Below, piece by piece: positions 37,628 to 38,409 of a stretch of DNA of 64,000 nt; position 1 is the stretch's first letter; the number at the start of each line of letters is the position of its first letter. Made by a program: the position numbers and the translations under genes. The stretch comes from Hyperoplus lanceolatus (Eukaryota > Chordata > Actinopteri > Uranoscopiformes > Ammodytidae): NCBI GenBank assembly GCA_026929865.2, contig CM049404.1:7335001-7399000 (forward strand). The letters run 5' to 3'. The notes under the pieces are model-generated. The model did no database searches. It was not told the origin of the DNA and saw only the letters and a list, made by a program, of their open reading frames with translations.

Positions 37628-38409
37628 CTACTCATTAAACCCGTCTTGGTTGATGACGGATTTGAACAGTGAAATCAGCGGTTTTTGGCTTTGTCCGTCC
37701 CAGCTCTTCATAAAGCTTCCGTAGCGTTTACTAGCCGGCGAACTCCAGCGAAAATGCTTCATCTTATACGTGTTATCTGTCTGTTTCTTGACTGCCGGTA
37801 GTATGCTATTTTTGGTCAAATCACGTCTTAGGATATCCCCTTGATTGATCTCAGAATTTAACGCAGATTCTATTTCGTCTACGTTATTAGCTGTGAAGGT
37901 TTTGATTGGACGGCGTTTTTGGCCAACCGGTTTACCCCAACGGAAATGTTCCATGGAATAGGAGCGCTTGATTTGAGGGGATTCGGAGTTGACAGTGGTT
38001 TCATTGGGGTCTTGCTCCGATTGTTTGAATTTGTCTAAAAGCTGCTCTGATTCGTCGAAAGGTTGGAGGTGGGCGTGTCCCGGGAATGCTGGCGTTTCAT
38101 TGGTCAGATCCGATCGACAGAGCTGGATGCATTCCTGGAAGAGAGAGAGGTAAAGTTAGGTTAGGCAGGATAGATAGATAGATAGATAGATAGATAGATA
38201 GATAGATAGATAGATAGATAGATAGATAGATAGATAGATAGATAGATAGATAGATAGATAGATAGATAGATAGATAGATAGTAGTATTTTACCAGTATGC
38301 TGTTTTCAGATCTCAGATCCTGACAGATGGGATTCTCCCAGCACTGACCAACTGTTCCTTTGGCCACGCCCACTATCACCACAGCAACCAATAGCCACGC
38401 AGCACACAT
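37628..38409 (-). CDS. pomcb: Proopiomelanocortin, beta-type paralogue, complete
   Basis: Pituitary/hypothalamic prohormone, cut at basic pairs into melanocortins and endorphin. Coding exons 38409-38293 and 38134-37628 (stop TAG), phase 0 junction, 207 aa. Start chosen at the ATG four bases after the acceptor (exon starts at 38413), as in other POMC genes. Signal peptide about 1-22 (MCAAWLLVAVVIVGVAKG). N-POMC has four cysteines (QCWENPIC, ECIQLC). No gamma-MSH, as usual in teleosts. ACTH/alpha-MSH starts after KR (95-96): SYSMEHFRWGKPVG, followed by QKRRP. Beta-MSH core KMKHFRWSSPASKR ends at 176. Beta-endorphin starts YGSFMKSW (177-184), so Gly3 of the enkephalin core is Ser. The region between ACTH and beta-MSH is degenerate. 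Ordinary teleost POMC-alpha keeps YGGF, so I assign this to the beta paralogue. Each intron carries a long GATA array. Confidence 0.93.
38169..38281. repeat. (GATA)n array in pomcb intron 2
   Basis: About 28 clean GATA units (TATC on the coding strand). The intron is about 158 bp, so the array is most of it and comes within about 7 bp of the donor region. Confidence 0.95.

Follow-up and report, generated by a model that had tools for sequence, protein, structure and literature searches.

The window, a stretch of 64,000 nucleotides from Hyperoplus lanceolatus, carries on its minus strand a POMC gene, a source of stress and colour hormones, whose beta-endorphin begins with YGSFM rather than YGGFM. 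Judged from sequence comparisons, this gene is probably a live, fast-evolving POMC duplicate of the alpha class, still making melanocortins while its opioid end changes. The precursor would be cut by convertases into ACTH, a beta-MSH and an endorphin of 31 residues opening with YGSFM, the alpha-MSH would be C-terminally extended and lack an amide, and the endorphin would have a lowered opioid potency, not necessarily reduced to zero. Such a reduction may be tolerated because a second alpha-class copy in the same genome (contig C19) keeps YGGFM.

The gene was found to be complete: once its exons are joined at GT/AG sites, 207 residues can be read without a break, the coding region being split by a single intron, and the window contains zero N letters. 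The coding part of exon 2 (38293..38409, minus strand) comprises 39 codons for the signal peptide and the beginning of NPP, including two of the four NPP cysteines, all four of which are present in the gene. Exon 3 (37628..38134, minus) encodes the remainder of NPP, ACTH, beta-MSH, the endorphin and the stop. The ACTH region, starting SYSMEHFRWGKPVGQKRRPIK, covers residues 97-141 (37829..37963, minus), its end being placed by the RR site that follows. The beta-MSH core DNTYKMKHFRWSSPAS comprises residues 159-174 (37730..37777, minus), with KKQT before and KR after it, and the endorphin-like peptide YGSFMKSWDGQSQKPLISLFKSVINQDGFNE comprises residues 177-207 (37631..37723, minus). Matches to the Pfam models NPP (83.4 bits), ACTH_domain (56.8 bits, in two stretches) and Op_neuropeptide (43.3 bits) followed one another in the order NPP, ACTH, opioid, and since all three lie above their cut-offs a motif arisen by chance can be dismissed. 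The two HFRW cores are both retained, flanked by basic cleavage sites, with the KR, RR, KK and KR sites intact. The six-frame translation of the window contains HFRW twice, and a second POMC gene inside it was ruled out, as both occurrences belong to this one gene. No RNA family was matched across the window at gathering thresholds.

When the genome was searched (806.7 Mb, 527 contigs), POMC exons were found at three places: the window (contig C10), C19 and C20. This count derives from one protein search, in which ten candidates were scored and six exon matches were obtained at these three places, and one PF08035 search, in which two of 22 scored candidates matched (C19 with 65.1 bits and the window with 46.4 bits). 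The C19 copy, which is of the alpha class, shares 71% identity with the window copy over 87 mature-peptide columns and has a similar promoter; the TG tract, the CCTTGG motif and the TATA box are common to both in the alignment. From this alignment, the TATA box of the window copy was placed at 39431..39437 (TATATAA, minus), directly after the CCTTGG motif. A probable non-coding exon 1 (39341..39410, minus) ends at 39341, as set by the donor ..ATTG/GTAAG, its 5' end being a guess, and a similar donor (TGGTAAG) occupies the same alignment position in the C19 copy. Where the window copy reads YGSFM and GQKRR, the C19 copy reads YGGFM and GRKRR, and the last coding exon of the C19 copy is interrupted.

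The altered endorphin start follows immediately after KR, with residues 175-181 reading KR-YGSFM (Y177, G178, S179, F180 and M181; codons TAC GGA AGC TTT ATG). The codon AGC of Ser179, which replaces the second Gly of YGGF, lies at 37715..37717 (minus). The YGGF core of POMC is thus YGSF in the window copy, and it is still recognised by the Pfam opioid model. From GGC, if that was the ancestral codon, a single transition outside CpG would produce AGC. The first-pass annotation had described a POMC gene with a preserved endorphin tail and a changed opioid core, opening with YGSFM after a normal KR site; the translated exons 2 and 3, the Pfam matches and the comparison to the C19 copy all agree with this, and both its coordinates (37628-37723) and the residue number 179 proved exact.

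A second change, overlooked in that annotation, is located at the junction of alpha-MSH and ACTH. Here the CAA codon of Gln111 (37919..37921, minus) gives GQKRR, while Arg (GRKRR) is found in all five other POMC sequences compared, making the window copy the only one of six aligned sequences with GQKRR. In the KKRR-type address motif of the window ACTH, one of the four residues is changed. The amide of alpha-MSH derives from an exposed Gly, and Gln escapes trimming; from this general background we infer that Gln111 should prevent the amidation-site Gly of alpha-MSH from becoming exposed, with an extended, non-amidated alpha-MSH as the predicted product. In mammals, mature alpha-MSH arises when carboxypeptidase E takes off C-terminal residues and the C terminus is amidated (PMC3797980). 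Human MC2R depends on the KKRR address motif of ACTH, and the study concerned presumes that this also applies to other bony vertebrates (PMC8591103). The pairing of changes in the opioid core and in alpha-MSH amidation within one duplicate would represent a multi-peptide precursor losing some of its products and keeping others.

Selection on the window copy was assessed by codon-by-codon comparison to the C19 copy. The resulting pN/pS values (bootstrap ranges in brackets) were 0.04 for ACTH residues 1-21, 20 of which are identical between the copies, 0.16 for beta-MSH (0.03-0.39), 0.27 for the endorphin (0.12-0.51), 0.21 for the endorphin tail (0.08-0.45) and 0.75 for the signal peptide and NPP (0.52-1.10), all of them rough values that cannot date a relaxation, because saturation at synonymous sites (dS infinite) affects several domains. 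Over the whole coding sequence, dS between the copies is 1.51 with both lineages summed, and in a six-row tree of mature peptides the branch of the window copy has a length of 0.44 vs 0 for the C19 copy. Evolution free of selection was simulated with 2000 runs per level, the C19 copy standing in for the ancestor. At 0.2 substitutions per site, 1313 runs retained 20 or more of the 32 endorphin residues unchanged, and at 0.4, 37 did so; not one run did at 0.6, 0.8, 1.0 or 1.5. An open frame survived in 39, 2, 3, 0, 0 and 0 runs at these six levels, respectively. These results support maintenance of the window copy as a gene for most of its history, with recent relaxation possible.

An alternative is that the copy is a redundant duplicate in early decay towards a pseudogene, with YGSF and GQKRR as the first hits in a frame that is still unbroken. 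Such a history would agree with the long branch, the high pN/pS of the signal peptide and NPP and the two altered functional motifs, and neutral drift at low divergence does keep the endorphin in most runs. At high divergence, however, the neutral runs never kept it, and the near-identical first 21 residues of ACTH, the kept dibasic sites and the similar promoter likewise argue for a gene in use; we consider early decay unlikely. Even a gene in use may give little peptide, as illustrated by A. burtoni, where an in situ signal was reported for all three POMC genes but none of the pituitary peptides was assigned to POMC1B or POMC2 alone (PMC4992253).

The consequences of Ser at position 3 are less clear-cut than the first-pass annotation assumed. 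Tyr-Gly-Gly-Phe is the common start of typical opioid peptides, but dermorphin and deltorphin have Phe at position 3 and the endomorphins begin with YPWF or YPFF (PMC11013236), and the statement that no known opioid peptide can do without the second Gly was therefore too strong. The same source places [D-Ala3]dynorphin A(1-11)-NH2 among common modifications, and in the structure of dynorphin bound to KOR the contact to Gly3 is made via the main chain (PMC10246719). Given natural opioids that lack Gly3 and this main-chain contact, the description of the window copy as being without a functional opioid core is an inference. Based on its sequence, the YGSFM endorphin is likely to have reduced mu/delta potency, which need not amount to a total loss of opioid activity through Ser3. 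With its one changed residue, the peptide could serve as a natural experiment on the contribution of endorphin position 3.

It is also conceivable that Ser3 has been favoured, with the endorphin under selection and shifted from mu/delta to another receptor or to a non-opioid role. The low pN/pS of the tail is in line with this, as are opioid ligands in which position 3 is not Gly (PMC11013236) and the way KOR contacts Gly3 through the main chain (PMC10246719). On the other hand, GQKRR, the other change of this gene, resembles a general loosening, and a receptor-selective endorphin appears quite improbable.

An allele or an assembly error, with YGGF as the usual form of the window copy, would call for one base only (GGC to AGC). 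The surrounding frame is clean, though, with no homopolymer, and the window copy was found at one place only when the assembly was searched, and we regard this explanation as very doubtful.

The window copy was compared to the peptides of tilapia POMCa1, POMCa2 and POMCb, taken from Table 1 of PMC7582737. Its endorphin scored 111.5 against a1, 109 against a2 and 43 against b (19, 20 and 9 of 31 residues identical, respectively), and its ACTH 130, 137 and 106.5, whereas beta-MSH alone failed to discriminate (69.5, 61 and 68.5). The mature-peptide tree, whose six rows are the three loci of this genome and the three of tilapia as the only other species, separated alpha from beta at 100/100 and placed the window copy on the alpha side, where it is assigned to neither a1 nor a2. 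As in tilapia POMCa1 and POMCa2, the endorphin tail follows the pattern KSW..SQ.PL..LFK.VIN, beta-MSH contains YKMKHFRW and SYSMEHFRWGKPVG is present; both tilapia sequences, however, read YGGFM and GRKRR where the window copy reads YGSFM and GQKRR, and their ACTH tail is shorter (PMC7582737). With teleost POMCb it shares an altered opioid core beside a kept melanocortin core (tilapia has NGGFM, zebrafish lacks YGGF), but the divergent endorphin tail and the KPSGRKRRPVKVFASS in ACTH of tilapia POMCb are both missing from it (PMC7582737, PMC9353172). On these comparisons, the window copy is an alpha-class POMC, perhaps the POMCa2 of percomorphs. Against this, the two fish alpha copies are described as a tandem duplication (PMC4992253), whereas the genome search placed the window and C19 copies on different contigs.

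The first-pass annotation had instead linked the altered core to changes known from teleost beta paralogues. Such changes are indeed on record, as YGGF is lost in zebrafish POMCb (PMC9353172) and tilapia POMCb is, according to its authors, unable to give bioactive beta-endorphin (PMC7582737), but that the window copy is itself a POMCb is almost certainly wrong, as it lacks beta-type ACTH and endorphin sequence in both scores and tree and a separate POMCb-like gene (KPSGRKRRPVKVFASSLEGG, NGSLM) lies on C20. That the three fish POMC precursors bear different beta-endorphins has been stated in general terms (PMC7067429). A search of open-licence literature found neither YGSFM nor GKPVGQK, nor a report of an alpha POMC copy with a changed opioid core, although an earlier report is possible. 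With opioid-core loss known for POMCb, the alpha-class case would be a modest new variant, which suggests that opioid-core decay in fish POMC is not confined to the beta copy.

In the C19 copy, which keeps the canonical opioid core, the coding portion of the last exon is interrupted by 787 inserted bases whose ends resemble splice sites (L007, 3063-3849). The insertion consists of two copies of a repeat of about 230 bases and other repeat sequence, and a further copy of this repeat is present in the window (40689-40934). Among the 1385 GT sites on both strands of the 9-kb locus, ten, the donor of the insertion being one of them, reach or exceed the score of this donor, and a pyrimidine tract as rich as that of the acceptor is seen at 50 of 1055 AG sites. 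From its sequence, the insertion is possibly an intron gain or a gene-breaking insertion. If it is spliced, a POMC of 202 residues with YGGFM would result; if unspliced, a stop would be met 11 codons past the insertion point, ahead of beta-MSH and endorphin.

The C20 copy (L008, 3849-4408) groups with tilapia POMCb and likewise has Ser at endorphin position 3 (codon AGC), its endorphin starting with NGSLM. Its frame is broken after the ACTH region, either genuinely or through an indel of the assembly. With YGSFM in the window, an interrupted NGSLM on C20 and YGGFM behind the insertion on C19, this could be a fish without any canonical beta-endorphin, which we think very unlikely; if true, POMC in this lineage would be left with melanocortin functions alone.

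The genome has kept another gene of the opioid family, as a frame on C20 contains KR-FGGFQ and KR-YGGFI; we take it to be prepronociceptin-like. In a PF01160 search of the genome, 49 candidates were scored and one locus was matched; proenkephalin and prodynorphin were not found in this search, which does not imply their absence. Near the POMCb-like copy on C20, exons were recognised by eye as EFR3 (L017, 1345-2571), with no Pfam match; human POMC also adjoins EFR3B.

Elsewhere in the window, a CARD exon confirmed by Pfam (14018-14335, minus), presumably caspase-9-like, adjoins exons on the plus strand (16533-22310) that in our reading resemble DNAJC16, and a thioredoxin match is below the Pfam cut-off. 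In open-licence literature, no paper was found that brings together even three of POMC, casp9, dnajc16 and synteny. Exons of a kinesin motor domain are located at 42759-44499 (plus), three of four being over the Pfam cut-off, and we assume a C-terminal, KIFC1-like kinesin. LINE-like endonuclease (Pfam) and reverse transcriptase-like (by eye) frames occur at 2318-4798 (plus), and a SUEL lectin domain was identified by Pfam at 1036-1482 (minus).
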